A stretch of 64,000 nucleotides of DNA from Acarospora socialis (taxonomy: Eukaryota > Ascomycota > Lecanoromycetes > Acarosporales > Acarosporaceae), in the NCBI GenBank assembly GCA_025617375.2, contig JAMYGW020000006.1, positions 439,001 through 503,000 on the forward strand, read 5' to 3'. The notes below the pieces were generated by a model that ran no database searches, had not been told where the DNA came from, and worked only from the letters and a program-made list of their open reading frames with translations. Shown here one piece after another: positions 18,878 through 31,400 of this stretch; position 1 is the first letter of the stretch; the number at the start of each line of letters is the position of its first letter. A program made the position numbers and the translations under genes.

Positions 18878-18932
18878 TATATAATCTCGCCATTTTCTTC
18901 TTTTCTCGTTCTTCTCTTCTTCTCTTTTTCAC
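18878..18932 (+). promoter_or_regulatory. TATA box and CT-rich core promoter
   Basis: TATATAAT at 18878-18885 is followed by an almost pure pyrimidine tract (about 18,890-18,930) and then CACATCACACC. A TATA box plus CT tract just before the start site is characteristic of strongly expressed filamentous-fungal genes. It faces the putative spliced gene starting at 19139, implying a 5' UTR of about 200 bases that also contains a 10-codon upstream ORF at 18950. Confidence 0.5.
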
Positions 18933-19138
18933 ATCACACCGTTTCTCATATGGCTTCCACACAGCCAACTTTGCTCCACTAGAAGCACACAACTTAATCA
19001 CATTTGAACACATACTTATTCTATCACAACCAACGCATACTCTCATCGTTCCTCAACACACATCTCTGCCTCTACCACAAATACTCAGGCTTCACCGATC
19101 GCACATCTCCTCGCGTCTTAGCATCGACCCGGCACGTC

Positions 19139-19873
19139 ATGAACTCCACACGCGTAAGTCTTCTACAGTGATACACTAACCCAATTTCCAACTGACATAG
19201 TTTCCCAACTATAGGACCACACATATCATCGACGCGTGTCAATCATCTTCACAACTTTCGCTCTCCTATCGGCTTCTTACCTATCCTCGGGCGCGTCCCA
19301 CTACAATCTTAATGTAAGTCTTATACGTACAAGCTCATGTTTTCTCTCACTCAATTCAGATTGTAGACGCGTCAATGGACCTTCGATGACACACACGCCA
19401 CCTCATCAGGGAGGCCGCTCTCCACAACTCCACGATCGGGTGGCCTCTCTGATGAGTCTCAACCACTGGACACCTCTCATTTCACGCCTCCTGGAAGAGA
19501 TCCAGGGCAGCTAACGCTCTAATGCTGCCCTGGATCTCTTCCAGGCACCAAACCAGAAACGCTCGCTGTTAGTAGGTCCCATCCCCAAACCTCATTCCCT
19601 CCCACTAAGACTCTGTTACAGATGCCACTCAACATACACAAACCTCACCAGGGAGATGGCCACTCCACGCCACGACATAGCCATCTCCCTGGTGAGGCAC
19701 TACGCCTCAACGCCTCCTGTGAGTATTTTCTATTCCAAGCATTGCTTGCCTCTGCTGACTCTGTTCTAGATGCGAACAAACATTCGCCAACCTCGCCAGG
19801 GAGATCCTCAACCCACACCATGTCGATCTCCCTGGCGAGGCACTCTCTCGAAAGCGACTTCACCGCACGATAG
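19139..19873 (+). CDS. putative small spliced gene with hairpin-bearing exons and a signal-like N-terminus
   Basis: Five exon-like segments have good intron borders: introns 19154-19214 (GTAAGT, CTAAC/CTGAC, ATAG), 19314-19366 (GTAAGT...TTGTAG), 19572-19621 (GTAGGT, CTAAG, ACAG) and 19719-19769 (GTGAGT, GCTGAC, CTAG). Exons 19139-19153, 19215-19313 and 19367-19522 give an open 89-residue frame. Skipping the third exon and using 19622-19718 plus 19770-19873 gives an open 104-residue frame. Both share the first 38 residues: a basic start (HRR) and a hydrophobic run (VSIIFTTFALLSASYL) resembling a signal peptide, then small residues. Third and later exons encode related Thr/Ser/Pro/Gly-Arg stretches (TSSGRPLST, TSPGRSST). 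No Cys, no recognised domain. It may instead be a non-coding hairpin transcript. The frame agreement over several introns is the main support. Confidence 0.38.
19402..19456 (+). repeat. hairpin H1, 15-bp stem in third exon
   Basis: Left arm 19402-19416 pairs with 19442-19456 over 15 positions with one G-U-type pair. The left arm begins CTCATCAGGGAGG and is related to the arms of H3 and H4, which suggests that the exons are duplicates. Confidence 0.85.
19491..19544 (+). repeat. hairpin H2, perfect 21-bp stem
   Basis: Arms 19491-19511 and 19524-19544 are perfect reverse complements with a 12-base loop. The left arm starts CTGGAAGAGATCC. The stop codon of the 89-residue reading lies in the loop (19520-19522). 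Confidence 0.95.
19643..19697 (+). repeat. hairpin H3, perfect 18-bp stem in fourth exon
   Basis: Arms 19643-19660 and 19680-19697 are perfect reverse complements (CCTCACCAGGGAGATGGC) around a 19-base loop. The hairpin lies wholly between a 3' and a 5' splice-like site. Confidence 0.95.
19791..19840 (+). repeat. hairpin H4, perfect 16-bp stem in fifth exon
   Basis: Arms 19791-19806 and 19825-19840 are perfect reverse complements (CCTCGCCAGGGAGATC) with an 18-base loop. The exon start (ATGCGAACAAACAT) resembles that of the previous exon, 148 bp upstream. Confidence 0.95.
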
Positions 19874-20708
19874 CCAGCTCGTCGCCGATATGGATCTCTT
19901 GGTTTGGGGTGTGGATCGGGTTTGTGCTGGCAAGGTTTGGGGTTTGTTTTGGCTTGTTGCGACGGCTTCCTGGGAGGGCACTTTCCGCTCGCATGCCCTC
20001 CCAGGAAGCCGTCGCAACCAAAGGCGTCTTCAGCCCCCGGGCTCGCCGCCCGGCTTTTGGCGAGCCTGGGGGCTGATCTTTGTTTCTCTGACTTTTTATC
20101 ATGTTCTCAGCCCCCAGGCTCACCCTGGAGCTGAGTGGTGAGCCTGGGGGCTGATCTTTGTTTCTCTGACTTTTTATCATGTTCTCAGTCCTCAGACTCA
20201 CCCTGGAGCTGAGTGGTGAGCCTGGGGGCTGATCTTTGTTTCTCTGACTTTTTATCATGTTCTCAGCCCCCAGGCTTGCCCTGAAGCTGAGTGACAAGTC
20301 TGAGGACTGATCTTTGTTTCTCTGACTTTTTATCATGTTCTCAGCCCTCAGACTCACTCTGGAGCTGAGTGGTGAGTCTGAGGGCTGATCTTTGTTTCTC
20401 TGACTTTTTATCATGTTCTCAGCCCCCAGACTCACTCTGGAGCTGAGTGGTGAGCCTGAGGGCTGATCTTTGTTTCTCTGACTTTTTATCATGTTCTCAG
20501 TTCCCAGACTCACCCTGAAGCTGAGTGGTGAGTCTGAAGGCTGATCTTTGTTTTTCTGACTTTTTATCATGTTCTCAGTTCTCAGACTTGCTCTGAAGCT
20601 GAGTGGTGAGCCTGAGGGCTGATCTTTGTTTCTCTGACTTTTTATCATGTTCTCAGTCCCCAGGCTCGCCCTGGAGCTGAGTGGTGAGCCTGGGGGCTGA
20701 TCTCTCAT
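19860..20708 (-). CDS. open frame of 26-residue repeats across the hairpin array (doubtful protein)
   Basis: Starts at ATG 20708-20706, 282 residues. Because the unit is 78 bp, the frame repeats every 26 residues (core SPLSSRVSLGAENMIKSQR) about eight times. The tail past the array is basic. Unit-to-unit changes alter amino acids freely (P/S, G/D, S/F, V/A), with no sign of protein constraint. The opposite strand has the promoter and splice signals. It is most simply a by-product of a repeat length divisible by three; a repeat protein cannot be excluded. Confidence 0.2.
   Translation of the reverse strand: MRDQPPGSPLSSRASLGTENMIKSQRNKDQPSGSPLSFRASLRTENMIKSQKNKDQPSDSPLSFRVSLGTENMIKSQRNKDQPSGSPLSSRVSLGAENMIKSQRNKDQPSDSPLSSRVSLRAENMIKSQRNKDQSSDLSLSFRASLGAENMIKSQRNKDQPPGSPLSSRVSLRTENMIKSQRNKDQPPGSPLSSRVSLGAENMIKSQRNKDQPPGSPKAGRRARGLKTPLVATASWEGMRAESALPGSRRNKPKQTPNLASTNPIHTPNQEIHIGDELAIVR
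19956..20018 (+). repeat. hairpin H5, perfect 25-bp stem
   Basis: Arms 19956-19980 and 19994-20018 are perfect reverse complements (start GTTGCGACGGCTTCC) with a 13-base loop. This is the longest perfect stem of the locus and its sequence is unrelated to its neighbours. Confidence 0.95.
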
Positions 20709-21165
20709 GTATCTAGTTTTTTTTTTGTTTTCAACCCCCGGCCCGCCGCCTGGTTTTTGGCGGGCCCGGGGGTTGAGCTTCGTGCCTTTGGCTTACCATC
20801 ATGTCTTCAGCCCCCAGGCCTGCCACACAGCTTCGGCAGGCCTGGGGGCTGATGTTTTCTGTACTTAGCTCTTTGATTTTTCTCAGCCCCCAGGCCTGCC
20901 ACACAGCTTCGGCAGGTCTGAGGGCTGAGATTTTCTGTTCTTAGGCCCTCGGCCTTCTATCAACCCCCCGGCCTGCCATTCAGCTTTGGCAGGCTGGGGG
21001 GTTGACACTCATGTACTTAGCTTTTTTGATCTCGTTCAGCCCCCAGGCCCACACCACTCTGTTCTGGTGGGCCTGGGGGCTGGCTTTTAGATACTTAGAA
21101 GATCAACATGCAATCAACCCCCGGGCCTGCCGCTCTGTCTAGGCGAGCCTGGGGTTGGCTTTAAA
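20030..21165 (+). repeat. array of 15 GC-rich hairpins at 76-78 bp pitch
   Basis: Units start at 20030, 20107, 20185, 20263, 20341, 20419, 20497, 20575, 20653, 20731, 20807, 20883, 20960, 21036 and 21114. A typical unit is an 18-bp stem (TCAGCCCCCAGGCTCACC and its reverse complement), a 10-12 base loop and a pyrimidine-rich 28-30 base spacer. Units starting 20107-20653 share the spacer TCTTTGTTTCTCTGACTTTT and are exactly 78 bp. Later units keep the stem and pitch but change loop (ACACAGCTTC) and spacer (often with ACTTAG). Some stems are perfect (20107, 20807); others carry transitions or small bulges. Pol III or mitochondrial origin is not indicated. Function unknown. Confidence 0.92.
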
Positions 21166-21781
21166 GTTATATGTTCTGTTGCTCACTGTGCATCATGATC
21201 ATAACAGTATTCTAAAGGTCTCCAAAAGCCAAATCTCAATATCTATGACCTATCTCACAAATTGATCTCATCCTTAAGGCTGATTGTAGTTCACAAACAC
21301 ATAGAAAGAATTGTGATCTAAATATAAAGGGGCACAACTTCACTGAAGAGAGCAATGCAGATTCATGTAGTAGAATATCTTATTGGGCAAGGCAGGTGCA
21401 CATGAACCATTATATGACTGATATATAACTGAACTCAATTCAGAACCATGATATAACTGCTGTATAATTATCAAAATATATAATAGTTATGTCATGATTA
21501 TTAGCAGATAACTCAAATCTAATAAACACAATTGTCATGAAGTAATTGTTTCTATTTATATAACACTGACAACAATAGTAAAATTGCAAAACATAGACAA
21601 TATCACAATGCTTGTGACTTTCAAGACAGTCACAAAATGTTAGTGAATTTCAAAAATGCCAAGATCTAGACTTGAATGCTGTGTCATATCATGAACATCA
21701 ACATCACACTAAAAAAAATCACAAGTTCAGTCAATTCAGACAAATTCACTCATAGACTGATGATCTTAAAAGTCACATGTG
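21166..21781. other. boundary DNA, increasingly AT-rich, no gene seen
   Basis: About 0.6 kb between the hairpin array and the first LTR element. CC and GG still occur in its first part and become rare towards the right, so the mutated compartment fades in here. At about 21,376 the words GGGCAAGGCAGGTGCACATGA recall the core of the 18.06-18.77 kb repeats. Confidence 0.5.
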
Positions 21782-22589: not shown

Positions 22590-25500
22590 CTTTGAACATT
22601 CTTATAATATAATGAGTATGATGTTTGACACACAGAAAAACATCTTAACTTCATTCTTGAAACAAGTTCAGATAAACTCATCTTTATTATTTACTTTAAA
22701 TAGAACAGTAACACAATCAGTGATGTCAGTCTTGATAATACAACTATCTCTGAGTGCATCAAAGATACAAATACTGAATATCTTTGATGAAGAGAGAGAA
22801 AAGCTGCAAGTCTTTGTGACTAAACTTGATCTGTACATTGAATTTAATCAATTAAAGTTTCAAATCAATCAAGAAAAGATCTTGTTTGCAATGATCTATC
22901 TTGTGAATGCAGCTTTCAATTGAATTGATTTCAAACTGCATGAGTTTCTAGAAAAAAAATATGAAGAATGCAATGCAGATGCAAAGTCTATGTTTAATGA
23001 CTACACACAGTTTAAAAAAGAACTGAAAAAAGTCTTCAGAGTGATTGATGAAGAAAGAGCAGTAGAGAAATGAGTTTACATCTTGTGACAGAGTGAATCA
23101 GTAACAGTATACATCATGAAGTTTCAGCAGTTAGTGACACTTATTAAATGAAATGATGAAGCACTCATCTATCAGTATTATTGTGAGTTGAGAGAGTTCA
23201 TTAAAGATGAAATAGCTCAAGCAAAACAATCAGACAATCTTCAGAAAATGATCAATCTGAGTATCAATATTGATAGTTGTCAATGAAAACAACAGATGAA
23301 ACAAAAAAAATATTGAATGTCATCTATGATAAAAGATCAAGAAGAAAGCTTCTGATTGTGAGTGAAGTGATATGTTTTATTGATAAGATATAGAAAGACA
23401 AACTCTATAAATTTCAATATAATCAAGAAGTATCATCAGAAGTCATGAAAGATTAGATGAACAGAGTATGAATGTTAGTCAGAGTGATTCACTAAGTCTT
23501 AAATAATACTGTGAAACAAGATGTGAATGTATTACAACTGTGAAAAATCTAAACATCTTGTCTGAGAATACAACAGATCTCAAATAAAAAGAAAAAATGT
23601 TGCAGTGACAGTCAAGAAAAATACATGCATAGTGCATGATGTTCTCAGCTGAACAGTCTGTTACAATGACATGTGCAGAGTACACATGAGTGCAAAAAAT
23701 AAAGTCAGATGATATTTTCAGAGACTGTGCAAAGACATAAAGAACAGATATAACAAGAAAAGTTAATTAACATACAAAACAGAATTAATTATTCTTATCA
23801 AAAAAGAATTTCTTGATGTTAAGAAAGAAGATAATGTTCTTGAAGATAACATTGAAGAGACTGATGATCATGAATTTCAGATTGATAAATCTTGAATATT
23901 TTTTGATAGTGATACACTCACAGAAGAAAGTTTAAATGATGTTGAGACAGAATTCTTGAGAGAGTACTGAACAAAGATTGAAAGAAATCTAGATGCTCAA
24001 AGAAAAGTAACATTAATCAGCAAGAAAATACTGAGAAAAAAACAGAGAACTCATGAACAGAAAGCAGAGAAATACAAAGAATTTGATGATTTAATGAGAG
24101 ATATATAAACAGTTATAAAAGAATCAATATCAGAATTTCTTGTGTGAAAGATCAAGAGTCACAAGATCAAGATATGCTTATCTGAAGAGTATATCATGCA
24201 GAATGAAGACAAATGAATCTTCAGTGAAGAATATATATCATTTGAATTTCTGCAAAGAGTAAGAGTCTTTGAGAGTCAGTTGCAGATAAAGTATGATCAG
24301 TATGAATTCTGACTACATTCAGAAAGATATATTGAGTGATACAGTTTAAAGTATGTGAATCTCATGATCAAAAAAGAATCAAAATAATTTCAAGAACTTT
24401 GAAGACAAGCTGAACAATCAAGTGAGTCAAAAAATGAAGAGCTTTCTTGATGAGACTAGAAAATAAAAAGCTAATGATGTCTCAAAGACAAGACAATGAT
24501 CATTGAATATGAATCAAGATTATAATCAACAAACATCAAATTAATACATTGATAAATTCTGAAACAGATGATAACATTATGAGCTGATGAATAATCAATA
24601 TATTAGAATTAGTGATACAGAGAGTGCACTGTTCATTCAACATACAAATGACAAATGAAGTCATTGAAAGAATCAATGAGAAAATCTGTTTGAAAGTCTC
24701 AATTCTTGAAAACTCACAAGAGATAATGTTCAATGTTATGAAATCAATTGAATACAATACAATACTAAAGATGTTCTGATTGTGCAGAAGAAATTTGAGA
24801 ATTGATTGAATTATAAAAGAAATATATACAGTTAAAGACACATACAAGATTTCTGAACAATCAGAGATGAACTTATTAGAATATAAGTTATGAGATCATG
24901 AAATACTGCTATTGAATGAAAAACAATTTAAGTGAATATCATTATACTCAATGAGTGAGAATCAACTCAAGAAAGTAAAAACTTATCTTGATGAAAATCT
25001 AAAGAGAAAATTCATAAAATCATCAAAATCATCAGCAGAATACTCAATTCTGTTTATATCAAAGAAGAATGACAAGAAACAACTATGTATCAATTACAGA
25101 CAACTCAACAAGATAACTCATCAAGATAGTTATTCTTTATCACTGATAAAAGAGTTGCAAGACTGATTAAACAAGACTAAATAATTCACAAGCTTAAATC
25201 TTAAGAATGTTTACTACTGAATCAGAATGAAAGAAGACAAAGAGTGAAAGATGACATTCTGAACAAGATATGAACACTATGAATACATTGTCATGTTGTT
25301 TGAGCTAAAGAATGTCTCAATCATCTTTCAGAGATTAATCAATGACATATTGAGAAAATATCTCAACAATTTTGTAATTACATATCTCAATGACATTCTG
25401 ATATATTCAGAAAATCTTGAGAAGTATCATAAATATGTGCACAAGATATTAGCAAAGCTCAATGAGAGAGCTCTGTATGTGAAAAAGTCAAAAAGCAGAT

Positions 25501-27786
25501 TTAAAATCAAGAAAGTTAAGTTTCAAAACTATGTGATTCAATCTGAACAGATCAAGAAGAATTTAAAGAAGATAAAAGCAGTCAAAAACTGATTAACATC
25601 AAAATGAATCAAGAAAGTACAGATCTTTCTAGAATTAACAAATTATTATTGAAAGTTCATATCAAACTATGCAAGAATTGCAAAATCACTGATGTGTTTG
25701 ACATGCAAAAGTGAAAAATAACATTGAAATAAGAAACAGAAAGATGCATTTCACATATTAAAGAAAAGTTTTAGTGAAACAGCACATCTAAGAATACTCA
25801 ATTCAGTATGTGAGAAGACACTGAAAACTGATGCTTCAGATTTTGCAGTAAAAGTATGTTTATATTAAATTGAGAATGAGCAACAGAAACTCATAGCATA
25901 CTAATTTAGAAAGCTATCAGAACTCAAGAAAAAATATGAGATTCACAATAAGAAATTTCTTGCAATAGTAAAAGCACTATAAAATTGAAGATCTTATCTT
26001 ACAGAAACAAACAAATCAATTCAGATCTATACAGATCACAAGAATCTGAGAAATTTTGCAATGACAAAACAATTCAATCAATAACAGATTTGTTGAGTGA
26101 AGCAGTTGACAGACTATGAATTTCAGATTCATTACAAGAAAAATAATGAGAACAGTGAAGCAAATGTCTTAAGTAAATGATTTAATCATGAAGATGTACA
26201 GACAATACATGTTGAAATTCTGAGTAAAGATGACAACAAAATTCTCATGAAAGACTTAGCAGCAATGTACAAGATGAAGTAAGTTTTCTTAACAAATAAT
26301 GAACTCATTAAGATGTGTCACTACAGCAGAATCAGTGAACATCTAAAAATTAAGTACACTGAGAATTTAGTGCAGAGAAGATGCAACATTAACAATTTTA
26401 GAAATTGAATCATCAGAATGATCACTGTGTGCAATTTATGTTAAAGAAATAAGATCAATTAAAATAAACAATATGATGAAGTAACATGACTAGATGCACT
26501 GAATGCATCATGAAAATTAATTATCATGAACTTCATCATGAAGCTATCACTGTCAAAGAATTCAGCATGAAAAGTGAGATTTGATAGCATACTGATAATA
26601 GTGAATAGATTGATTAAGTACACAATGTTTATTTTATTCAAAGAAATCACAACAGCATCAGTATTAATGTACATCATATTGTGAGAATTAATTAGCAATC
26701 ATGAACTATCAAAAGAGTTTATCACTGACAGAGACAAACTGTTTACAAGCAAATTTTGAAAAATGTTTACAGCAGAGCTTGAAATAAAGCACAAGATGTC
26801 AATGACATATCATTCACAGATAAATGAGCAAAGCAAACAAATAAATCAAACAATGAAAACATACTTGAGACACTATGTCAACAAAAGTCAAAACAACTGA
26901 GTATGACTGTTGCTGATGACACAGTTTGTGTACAATAATGCAAGAAATGAAATCATGAGAGAAATGTCTTTCTATGTGAACTATGACTATAATTCAAAGA
27001 TATAACAAGATCTCAAAGAACATGAATCACAAAGTCAAAAAGCAATTTTAGATGTTGCTCAGATGAAAAAACTGCATTGAGATTTAATAAAATAAATCAA
27101 ACAGCAGACAGAATGAACAACAGAAATAAGATTATTCAAAGAAGAAGAAAAGATATATTTAAAAATGAACAATATAAAGATCAAAGAGAGAAGCAAGAAA
27201 CTGAAAAATAAAAGCATTAAATCATTCAAAATCATACAGAACATCAAAGAATTAAGTTATGAATTAGATTTACTCAAAGAAATGAGAATACACTCAGTAT
27301 TTCATGCATTCATGTTATAGCATTGCAATCAGTTCATATCACTTCAAATTACTGAAACATCTGTCAAACTTAACAAAGAATATGAAGTTGAAAATATTTT
27401 AGAGAAGAGAATGATTAGTGAGAAAGTTCATTATCTCATAAAATGAAAAAAATATGATATCTCAGAAAGTATCTGAAAACTCAGAGAGAATCTCAAGAAT
27501 TGTGTGAGAACACTTTAATGTTTTGAGAAAAAAAGTCAATATTAATTCAGAAGAATGACAATATTGAGTTAACAAATTACAACATTGTTTGAGAATCTTC
27601 ATTCTCAGTTTCATCATTATCACTATCAAGTTCAGCAACAAGACAATCAGTTTTCTGCACAGTATGATGATCTGTTTAATTTAAAATCTTTTGAAAATGT
27701 ATTATCTTGATGACAAGAACATCAAGAATTGCATTCACATCACTTATTTTCTTTCAAAGCAAAAGACAAGTTCTGTCAAGAGACTT

Positions 27787-27981
27787 TCACAAAACTGCAA
27801 TGCACAGATGACTGTGACAAGTATACTTATTACATTTTAGTTTTTCATCAATCATAACAAAGCAATCAAGATCACAGACAGTACAGAATTCACAAGAAAA
27901 TGTGATGAGACTATCACTGAGTTGAATTTTCTTTGCAATTCTTAGATGATTGAAATTTTTAGAAAGCATTGTTGCTGACAA
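27787..27981 (-). other. antisense Cys-rich accessory ORF of element A (N-terminal part)
   Basis: Lies opposite to gag-pol, between the chromodomain and the right LTR. A helical start (SKNFNHLRIAKKIQ) precedes paired cysteines with Zn2Cys6-like spacing. Homologous frames sit at the same place in elements E, H and G. Part of a fossil. Confidence 0.6.
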
Positions 27982-28046
27982 TGAAATTGTTATATACTCT
28001 TACTTAAATAAATTCTAGAAAACTAGCACCTGAAGAGAAAGAATGA

Positions 28047-28407
28047 TGTTACAATCATATTTAAAAAGAAAGAAACTCATAGATCTGTGATCAAGAGTTC
28101 ATTCAAAGCACATACAAAGAAAACTGTTAGACAGCAGTCACATAATGACACAATGACTTAATGATGAGCAGATGAGCTGAGAACTTAATTTCTCAACATT
28201 AAGACATTAAGACATCAAGAATGCTCAATGCAGAAACATCAAGCACATTCTATATAATAGAGTCATTTCTCTTATGAAAATGATCATGTTCAACTTAAGT
28301 AACAATTTAAGAGTTAAAGATCAAAACTGTTTCAGATCAGCTGTTATATCAATAAGCACAAACTTTTAGTTCTACATACTTGAGAAATCTCAGATTAGAA
28401 TGTTACA
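28047..28407 (+). repeat. right LTR of element A
   Basis: 361 bp, partner of 22229-22589. Confidence 0.9.
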
Positions 28408-31400
28408 AAATTTATTTAAGTCTTATTGACATTCTTAATTCATCAAGTCATCAACATTTATCTTACTCTGAATTCATCATTATCTTGTAATGCTGTCATA
28501 CTTGCATAACAACTAACTAAACTGATCAGACAAGACTTTATCTATTCAGATAAATTATATTCTGTGAATTAAGATCTTATTGATGTTGTTATCAGTAACT
28601 CATTCTGATTCAACTTATTTTCAGTATTTAATATTGTTTTGAGTCAGTCTGACTATAACTGTACAGTCAAGAGACTTTGAACATTGATTAAGAACTTTCA
28701 AGAAGCAACTCACTTTAACAAATGACATATTAGTATATCTAAAACATCTATCTTGTCAAGATCAACTTCTTCATATTAGTTTGAAGAACAACAACTGTCT
28801 GATTCTATCAAGAAAATACAATGTGAATAAGTTTATTGATTAATCAGTTTTCTGACACTGAGTCTAATATATTGAACAATTCTTCATCAAACAACAATTT
28901 CATCATTATAATTCAAGATCAGCTAGATCAGCTAGTCAAATGAACTATAGTCAAAGTTTTAGTAATACATCAGACTGATTCATCAGATCTGTTAAATTCA
29001 TTAAAATTATTGAAATAGTCTGATTATAATGAGCAGAATGAACTCAACAGTCATAACATGAAGAATCACTTCTGTGCTAAAAACATTAATTATTTCAACT
29101 CAAATTCTGATGCTGACTTCATTAAAGTTAATGATGATAAACAGATCTATCACAATGTATTCAGCTTCACAAATCACATCTGAGTTAAGACAATCATTAT
29201 AAACATAATTATTTTGCAGAAAAATCTGAAGTTATGTCTTTTAGATAAGATGAACTGTTGATATATTGAGAAACTTAGTTATTTGATCTGAGTTGATCTT
29301 TAAAATGATAATAAAGACATTGAAGAATGATGCAAGACATTAAAAACTAAATTTCAAGATTTGTCTAGCTGTGCTCTATTCATGCTTGAGTCATTATGTT
29401 ACACTGTCAATGATGTATGATGATACAAGAACTCTATCAATTACATTTAAAACATTGTATTACATGAAAAGAATGTTAGCATTGTCACTGAAGACTGTTC
29501 ACAGATATTTCTTGTATATAAACACATAGATAATGAGCTATGTCTATATCTTTCATCATCAAATGATAAGTCAACAATTAAGAATCTCATTAAGATCATA
29601 AATACACAGAAGAATATCTGATTCAATATTTATTTCAGAAATCAACAAGTTTTGACAATGTTAAATAGATTGATGCAACAATCACAGATATTCAGTAGAA
29701 ATTGCTCATTTCAGTTTTTCAATATCAGATTTAATGAACTCAATCAATTTAGATCTTTCTATTACAATCAAGTTTCATATAACAATCAGTTTTCTTATGT
29801 TTCTTATGAAAATCAATTTTCTAATAACTATGAACAATAAAATAATTGTCAACAGAATCAGAATCACAACAATGTTGTTAAAAAAGCTCATCATCATTCT
29901 TCACTAAATTCACTATCTGCATCTCATCAGTCACTTTAAATAACATTCAAAAACAAAAAACTGTTGTTTGAATCATATCAGAATACAAATTGATCTCATT
30001 ATGATTCAAATGCTTTAAAACAGTTATATCAGTCAAATCACTCTTCATATCAATCATATCAATCTTATTATTCTTCATATCAGTATAACAGATCTCAAGT
30101 CTATCACACTGAAGACAGTCAACAATTTATTAATGAACAAAAAAAGTATCAGACATACAAGAATGCATATTATGAGACACATAATTCAGCTAATAGTAAC
30201 AAGAATATTACTGAGAATGAGAAGAAACAGAATTTTTTTTCAGTCAATGAGAATAAAAATCTCATTAATGTTAATCATGTCACTGAAATCTCAAGAAGTC
30301 TTGAATGTCACACTTGTCATCAAGTGTTCTCATCAAACAATCAGCTATACAAGCATCTGTGTACTAGTTGTAATCACAGTAAATTTGTTATAAAACTGAA
30401 CTTAAAGACAATATTGACATCATTGATCTTAACATCTATCTATAACAAAATTATCACTGTGAATCAACTCAGTTCAAACAGCTATGTGTTGTTCACTATT
30501 CTTGTTAAATTCACTGTCACAAATTAATTCAGTTTGAACAACTATAACTTTTGAAAATGACACTACATCACAGCAGATGTCAAACTGTCATTAAATACAA
30601 TTACAAATCAGTCAATCTGTCTCAACACTGATTACATTATAACTTTAATTAACAAACAGTTTCTAACAGAACAGATATCTCATACAATAACTTACTGTAT
30701 AATGTCATCTATACTAATACAAGAACTAGACACTACTGTTCATAACTTTAATCAATATATTAAGATAAATATCTATCTATCTGAAAAGAATGACTATACA
30801 GCAGTTATTTTGCAGAAAGTTCACATCATTGAGAATCTTAAGATCAAAATACTTATTAACATGAACATACTAGCATCTGAGAACATAATCATGAACTTAT
30901 CACAAAAGATAATTGTCATTGACAGTTGTCAGAATATTGAGATCTCATTAATAATTATAACTAAGTCAATCAATCAGATCAGTCAGATCATTCTGATTAA
31001 ATATTGCATTGTTGTTTTATCACATATCAATTTTGCTGTCACAGTTATGTCACTCAATTTATTTTACAGTCAGAACTTTCTATTCAAGTTAAATTGTTGA
31101 CAGATTGATGTTTTTGTCTATATTTACATTGTTAATCATGTGATGATTAAGATACATGTATAAAATGATGATAATGTTTTTTTAATTATTTCATCAAAGT
31201 TCTGTATGAATCAAGTTGTTAAATATGAAGTTGAGAGCTGTTATTTAGTTAAGACTGAAAACACAATACTGATCTTAATATCTTGTCAGCAGTCTCTGTG
31301 TTATGAATGAATATAAGCTATTATGAAGAACTTGTTAGCTGCAGTTATTGTCTTTTATATCAATATAGATGAAAATCTAAAACACAAACTATTTAATGAC

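Follow-up and report, generated by a model that had tools for sequence, protein, structure and literature searches.

Natural hairpin-RNA genes are best known from animals, and hpRNAs usually have long duplex arms. Fungi feature short GC-rich hairpins in the GC clusters and palindromic elements of their mitochondria. Drosophila hp-CG4068 consists of tandem hairpins derived from a common transcript, present in 20, 9, 14 and 10 copies in close species, and another tandem hpRNA cluster of Drosophila sits at a heterochromatin boundary (PMC10317233). The hairpins of fungal mi/milRNAs are short, with inter-duplex lengths <20 nt, and a milRNA locus is recognised by >80% of the small-RNA reads coming from the hairpin strand (PMC9757828). 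That paper, a re-analysis of 1727 loci, makes no use of the words tandem, polycistronic or arrays in its main text, and calls for exploration of whether long hairpin RNAs act naturally (PMC9757828). No earlier description of a fungal hairpin array was found in the part of the open-licence literature that was searched.

The locus described here hosts 20 hairpins in tandem, denominated H1 to H20, found at 19402-21158 by a stem scan of the window, i.e. the whole stretch of 64,000 nucleotides analysed (C6:439001-503000); coordinates refer to the window and features to its plus strand, unless otherwise stated. Stems measure 16-25 bp, exceeding 20 bp only in H2 and H5, and loops are mostly 8-19 nt long. 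Four unlike stem families, A (H1, H3, H4), H2, H5 and B (H6-H20), share one common form. The tandem organization, and a unit number that differs between relatives, as judged from array translations, are reminiscent of hp-CG4068. Differences are that the array is fungal, that it combines four unlike families, that no target was found for it and that its stems are only 16-25 bp long, in contrast to the long arms usual in hpRNAs; no homology is claimed. Unlike mitochondrial GC clusters, the array is found at one place, in a 2.03 Mb contig carrying nuclear genes. Short hairpins, loops below 20 nt, intergenic location and stems retained in relatives are traits shared with milRNA precursors (PMC9757828), from which the array is set apart by having about twenty hairpins side by side.

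Family B includes 15 GC-rich hairpins spanning 20030-21158, a number correctly anticipated by the original prediction. The units start at 20030, 20107 and then every 78 nt to 20731, and further at 20807, 20883, 20960, 21036 and 21114. The predicted series of steps was right except at one point: the 78-nt step occurs eight times instead of nine, in the series 77, 78 (x8), 76, 76, 77, 76 and 78. Stems are 17-19 bp long, hairpins 46-48 nt in H6-H19, and spacers 30 nt in 13 of the 14 gaps and 31 nt in the remaining one. The first hairpin, H6 (20030-20076), is followed by the 78-bp units H7-H14 (20107-20730), which feature a C-to-T decay limited to CpC and CpG. Next come H15 (20731-20776), which has one bulge, H16 (20807-20852), with a perfect 18-bp stem, H17 (20883-20928), H18 (20960-21005), H19 (21036-21083) and H20 (21114-21158), which is somewhat decayed. 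Immediately upstream of H6, H1-H5 (19402-20018) lie outside the 76-78 register, at pitches of 88, 153, 148, 165 and 74. In family A, H1 (19402-19456) has a 19-bp stem with 3 G.U pairs, and H3 (19643-19697) and H4 (19791-19840) have perfect stems of 18 and 16 bp. Stems are perfect also in H2 (19490-19545; 22 bp, 12-nt loop) and H5 (19956-20018; 25 bp, 13-nt loop).

The array is not a chance assembly of palindromes. Twelve stems of at least 14 Watson-Crick pairs, with loops up to 25 and no mismatch, were found in 19301-21200; at the same threshold none was found in the remaining 62.1 kb of the window or in any of 40 dinucleotide shuffles of the region, in which no stem of 12 or more was formed. 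Elsewhere in the genome, 38 stretches (total 114,659 bp), fetched via weak pattern matches and hence not a strictly random sample, contained one such stem. This has 16 Watson-Crick pairs and a 22-nt loop, and is located at L048:1102-1157 (C7, about 1.493 Mb). A looser scan, allowing mismatches and loops up to 60, detected in the rest of the window four stems, which are weaker and carry 2-4 mismatches each. Array sequences were found only at this locus when the 31.1 Mb, 38-contig genome was searched by BLAST and by pattern, the BLAST tool used being one that skips simple repeats and very common words. The host is an ascomycete: a VPS9-like protein of this genome has nine top matches at 62-81% identity over 84-97% of the query, and the named matches ranking below them, among the 120 of 2125 listed, belong to filamentous ascomycetes. 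A known satellite scattered in the genome, envisaged at the outset as an alternative identity, is therefore rejected, as BLAST matches are confined to the locus. No Rfam family at gathering scores and no tRNA were found in the window.

Pairing was monitored in nine units outside the decayed core, a set from which the six most decayed units, H8-H13, were left out on purpose. In these, 98.1% of 160 stem cells pair, versus 30-56% in slid registers, and double changes occur in 5 of 18 pairs, carried by 13 cells. None of 500 shuffles reaches the observed values for cells paired, double-change cells or covariation score; unremarkable are the number of double-change pairs (reached by 33/500) and the pair types (245/500). 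Imperfect pairs outside H7-H14 are 12 G.U versus 2 A.C on the plus strand (p 0.013), a small bias among related, non-independent units; inside H7-H14 they are 14 G.U versus 9 A.C, and the contrast with the outside is not significant (p 0.15). The bias weakly suggests that it is the plus-strand RNA that conservation concerns. When the whole 1.8-kb RNA is folded to minimum energy, 10 of the 15 family-B hairpins are left without any pairs of their own, because the arms of different units are interchangeable. Hairpins formed across the spacer are on average ~5 kcal/mol weaker than unit hairpins, and stronger at 3 of 14 places. All considered, the hairpins are probably under selection as RNA.

Relatives of the array have been identified in databases. 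The spurious minus-strand frame P0121, used as protein query, matched P0123, which in turn matched P0124 and P0125; the identity of P0123 to the window plus-strand frame P0122 is 73% of 45 residues, over H5-H6. The three entries are read as read-through translations of the plus strand of orthologous hairpin arrays. Relatives are known here from translations alone, as their DNA found no match in viral_contigs or genome_contigs, and units were mapped by eye. All three feature, in this order, H5-like and H6-like doublets and units resembling H14-H19, with recognisable spacers. Of 64 unambiguous stem pairs, 60 are Watson-Crick, 2 are G.U and 2 break, and 104 further cells are compatible; at registers shifted by one or two, 22-53 breaks were counted. 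These figures come from 10 hand-chosen family-B rows of P0123 and P0124, some representing the same unit in both, and the scoring also took 3 hand-chosen H5-like rows, one of them from the window itself. The scoring excludes P0125, the units resembling H19, the H16-like unit of P0123, the one translated in a different frame and the partial doublet with which P0123-P0125 begin; it also excludes the H6- and H17-like units of P0124, which repeat those of P0123. H14 of P0123 features one unambiguous double change, T-A to C-G, and H17 has A-T where the window has G.T. In H5-like hairpins, 15/16 stem residues agree in each of two copies, versus 2/5 and 0/5 in the loops. A loose stem score (14 positions, wobble allowed) does not separate the relatives from shuffled proteins. 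With Watson-Crick pairs only, at 17 or more positions, P0123 and P0124 score 9 each versus shuffled means of 2.7 and 1.8 (maxima 6 and 5), and P0125 is slightly above the shuffles (6 versus 1.6, maximum 5); at 21 or more positions, none of the three stands out.

Adjacent units of P0124 are separated by steps of 69, 78, 78, 81, 78 and 72 nt. Pitch is thus loose, and of the two properties predicted to be conserved, stem and pitch, the former is retained and the latter only loosely so. A 72-column block of units in P0123 is absent from P0124 and P0125, and H7-H13 are extra in the window, according to the mapping by eye. Unit number thus appears to differ between relatives, and collapse in assembly may contribute to the difference. 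The original prediction had also considered an assembly artefact; this is not obvious, as similar arrays with other unit numbers underlie three database entries. A distal stretch of 48 residues in P0125 is compatible with P0123 and P0124 at 144/144 positions in another frame (best shuffled values 123 and 122). Likewise, H16 of P0123 and P0125, which by our reading of the sequences is missing part of the 5' arm, is translated in another frame than in P0124 (48/48; shuffles at most 44). That the same DNA is found in different frames across the three entries indicates that the DNA is kept, and that no protein is maintained.

Signals fitting a transcript have been found on the plus strand. A promoter-like site at 18878-18945, so called from its make-up, consists of TATATAA and, after it, a 40-nt stretch in which C/T make up 95%, and is the sole match to this pattern on either strand of window positions 1-21200. 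Two putative introns were revealed by a consensus scan, one of 47 nt (19154-19200; GTAAGT..CTAAC/CTGAC..TAG) and one of 51 nt between H3 and H4 (19719-19769; GTGAGT..CTGAC..TTCTAG). In 18900-20000, three five-prime sites with the full intron signal were found on the plus strand, versus 0.12 expected from base shuffles, and none on the minus strand; one of the three, at 19692, uses the same three-prime site as the 19719-19769 intron, so the three sites make two introns. Full intron signals occur also in 4 of 19 other 1.1-kb windows on the left side, which is expected of gene-bearing DNA. The longest frame left once the putative introns are removed is 144 aa. Promoter-like and intron signals together tentatively suggest one transcript running across the hairpins.

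The components of an RNAi pathway are plausibly available. Paired RNase III domains at two loci (C7, C10) look like two Dicers, and Piwi and RdRP domains are found at 4 and 3 places, respectively, so that the genome has putative Dicer-like, Argonaute and RdRP genes. On these grounds, the locus may be a spliced, non-coding, polycistronic hairpin-RNA gene feeding small RNAs to RNAi, a tentative reading to which we grant slightly less than an even chance. Pol II would transcribe the locus from left to right, from about 18.9 kb, and the transcript would be spliced; after removal of at least two introns, the RNA would hold about twenty short hairpins, likely to fold as the RNA emerges. Hairpins would be cut by Dicer-like enzymes into small RNAs loaded by Argonautes; these might act on targets in trans, or silence the neighbouring repeat block in cis. 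Use as a small-RNA precursor is considered the likeliest, given the likeness in form to fungal milRNA hairpins, and in layout and turnover to hp-CG4068. As in milRNA loci, the stem-loop is kept in relatives (62/64 pairs, from translations), and Dicer-like and Piwi domains are found in the genome. Among the three roles originally proposed, support is strongest for a polycistronic source of small RNAs, and comes from signals on one strand, covariation, G.U bias, stems of relatives and RNAi genes; this role is unproven. The array is said to work like the known systems, rather than to be a member of them, because no target complementarity was found and long arms are absent. The arms of H2 and H5 have no genomic match off the locus with up to 3 mismatches; the family-B pattern, with up to 2 mismatches, is found off the locus at 43 of 64 places, versus 45 for the reversed control. 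Targets in trans of H2, H5 and family B are rejected, nothing being above control. For family A, the pattern search allowing up to 2 mismatches gives 123 places, versus 81 for the reversed control, and at least 5 of the matches listed fall in the locus.

Among the alternatives, a palindromic minisatellite devoid of function, generated by template switching and slippage and mended in its pairing by arm-to-arm gene conversion, is unlikely, yet a serious candidate. H7-H14 clearly arose when a 78-bp unit was amplified in tandem, and this sub-block is now undergoing decay by the RIP-like mutation of the genome; the C-to-T decay of H8-H13 is tolerated, and unit number varies among P0123, P0124 and P0125. 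All 16 variable columns of H7-H14 are transitions, 14 located in arms and one each in loop and spacer (the spacer after H14, different throughout, is omitted from the count). The predicted pattern of stems kept while loops and spacers change holds between H14 and H20 and fails inside H7-H14, where 14/16 variable columns are in the arms. If the GC-richer state is taken as the older, 46/144 CpC or CpG cells are changed, versus 1/199 CpA or CpT cells and 0/84 CpA cells, and the RIP pattern accounts for all 47 changed cells but one. Variation confined to C-to-T decay at CpC and CpG led us to reject adaptive covariation or functional diversification as its source. In contrast, slippage alone, as in the minisatellite proposed originally, does not explain four unlike hairpin families lying adjacent, H1-H5 among them, nor the conservation of stems. 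The G.U bias outside the H7-H14 block, relatives that keep stems and change loops, and the failure of the genome search to find copies elsewhere also speak against the minisatellite. A 51-nt intron-like signal (GTGAGY..CTGAC..CTCAG), of the same length as the putative 19719-19769 intron, is present in 6 of the 8 units of H7-H14 (20138-20656), where splicing would destroy the hairpins. These possible micro-introns are treated as a by-product, since their 5' site falls within the 3' arm, which reads GGTGAG there and GGCGAG in H6.

The mutations resemble RIP, being C-to-T and G-to-A transitions, on both strands, of repeated DNA, but array and AT-rich block are hit only at CpC and CpG, and CpA is spared. 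CpA is the usual RIP target; CpG is mutated along with CpA in Aspergillus nidulans, and CpG in Microbotryum (PMC2621366). CpA is less preferred in Monacrosporium haptotylum (PMC3828140), and a CpG-biased hypermutation is found in Rhizoctonia solani (PMC4014442). GC content per kb is 46-58% over the first 21 kb, and from 22 kb onwards lies mostly at 25-32%. The left part of the AT-rich block (21160-64000, no strand assigned; ~28% GC) is at least partly a dispersed repeat, and the block continues to about C6:523.5 kb, as sampled at 508, 513 and 517-527 kb. A RIP-like mutation strictly limited to CpC/CpG was observed at 21160-64000 and in the pieces sampled from C6:508-523.5 kb. In the 42.8 kb of the block in the window CpG is missing, CpC/GpG is at 0.02-0.03 of expectation, and CpA observed/expected is 1.56. 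Classical CpA RIP is rejected for block and array alike, and the usual indices (TpA/ApT 0.67; (CpA+TpG)/(ApC+GpT) 1.62) miss the block, as classical ascomycete RIP prefers CpA. Given the same target, one RIP-like process seems to act on both H7-H14 and the block. CpC/CpG density is normal in H15-H20, located between the two, so the decay of H7-H14 probably follows from near-identity in tandem rather than from spreading. A dispersed repeat copy is found at 24001-28408; at least 20 other copies, of about 4.3-4.4 kb and 82-85% identity, were recognised by scoring 20 of 765 candidates, and the repeat may extend to the left, as the query began at 24001. Some copies are near contig ends of C1, C4 and C6. 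DNA methyltransferase domains are encoded at three loci of the genome G000 (C3:855595-856770, C2:1420221-1421136, C8:614409-614897), all candidates for the enzyme behind the CpC/CpG-specific mutation.

An RNA role other than small-RNA production, as a scaffold or repeated docking site for a double-strand-binding protein within a lncRNA, we regard as improbable. It draws on the same transcript signals and covariation, and multivalent binding would be well served by repeated sites. The stems of family B (17-19 bp) are rather short substrates for Dicer, which favours a scaffold and weighs against a small-RNA gene. Loop sequences are not kept, so that only the stem could be read by a scaffold protein, and no such protein or transcript is known.

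Slightly more improbable is a role at the DNA level, also among the original proposals, in which protein-bound or cruciform hairpins would form a boundary confining heterochromatin and its RIP-like mutation to the AT-rich block. In its favour, the last CpG ahead of the block (21144) lies in H20, none follows in 42.8 kb, and scattered CpC/GpG persist for only ~1 kb further, to about 22.2 kb. At the opposite edge, scattered CpC/GpG begin at about C6:517.75 kb and extend over about 6-7 kb, and CpG returns between C6:523.5 and 524.75 kb; the 10 kb examined there contained neither an array nor any stem reaching 10 Watson-Crick pairs. A hairpin-free edge that is less sharp fits a boundary, but an edge without array also argues against it, leaving a single case. 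Furthermore, H7-H14, on the supposedly protected side, are mutated alike (46/144 CpC/CpG cells), and the strand-biased G.U pairs point to RNA.

A repetitive protein-coding gene, such as the 282-aa minus-strand frame P0121 or the plus-strand frame P0122, is rejected on either strand as hardly credible: frames stay open because 78 is a multiple of 3, and relatives have frames of 200-304 aa, but no Pfam match of array frames reaches the cut-off, the one match of P0121 is an array translation that uses the frame of P0122, P0125 translates in one frame DNA that P0123/P0124 translate in another, and the plus-strand frame of the window stops in H7.

The small-RNA gene remains the preferred reading. 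In a fuller version, possible though on the unlikely side, the locus would be a natural fungal polycistronic hairpin-RNA gene, the first of its kind, convergent with hp-CG4068, made of several unlike families and located at the edge of a RIP-destroyed block, with small RNAs marking or policing the repeat block or taking part in meiotic conflict. Units would turn over fast because CpC/CpG-specific RIP destroys new tandem expansions and selection keeps the outer stems. A fungal gene of ~20 hairpins, retained in relatives and exposed to RIP-like decay, would allow the use of hairpin-derived RNAs by fungi in genome conflict to be tested, along with the means by which an RNA gene built of repeats persists where repeats are mutated.
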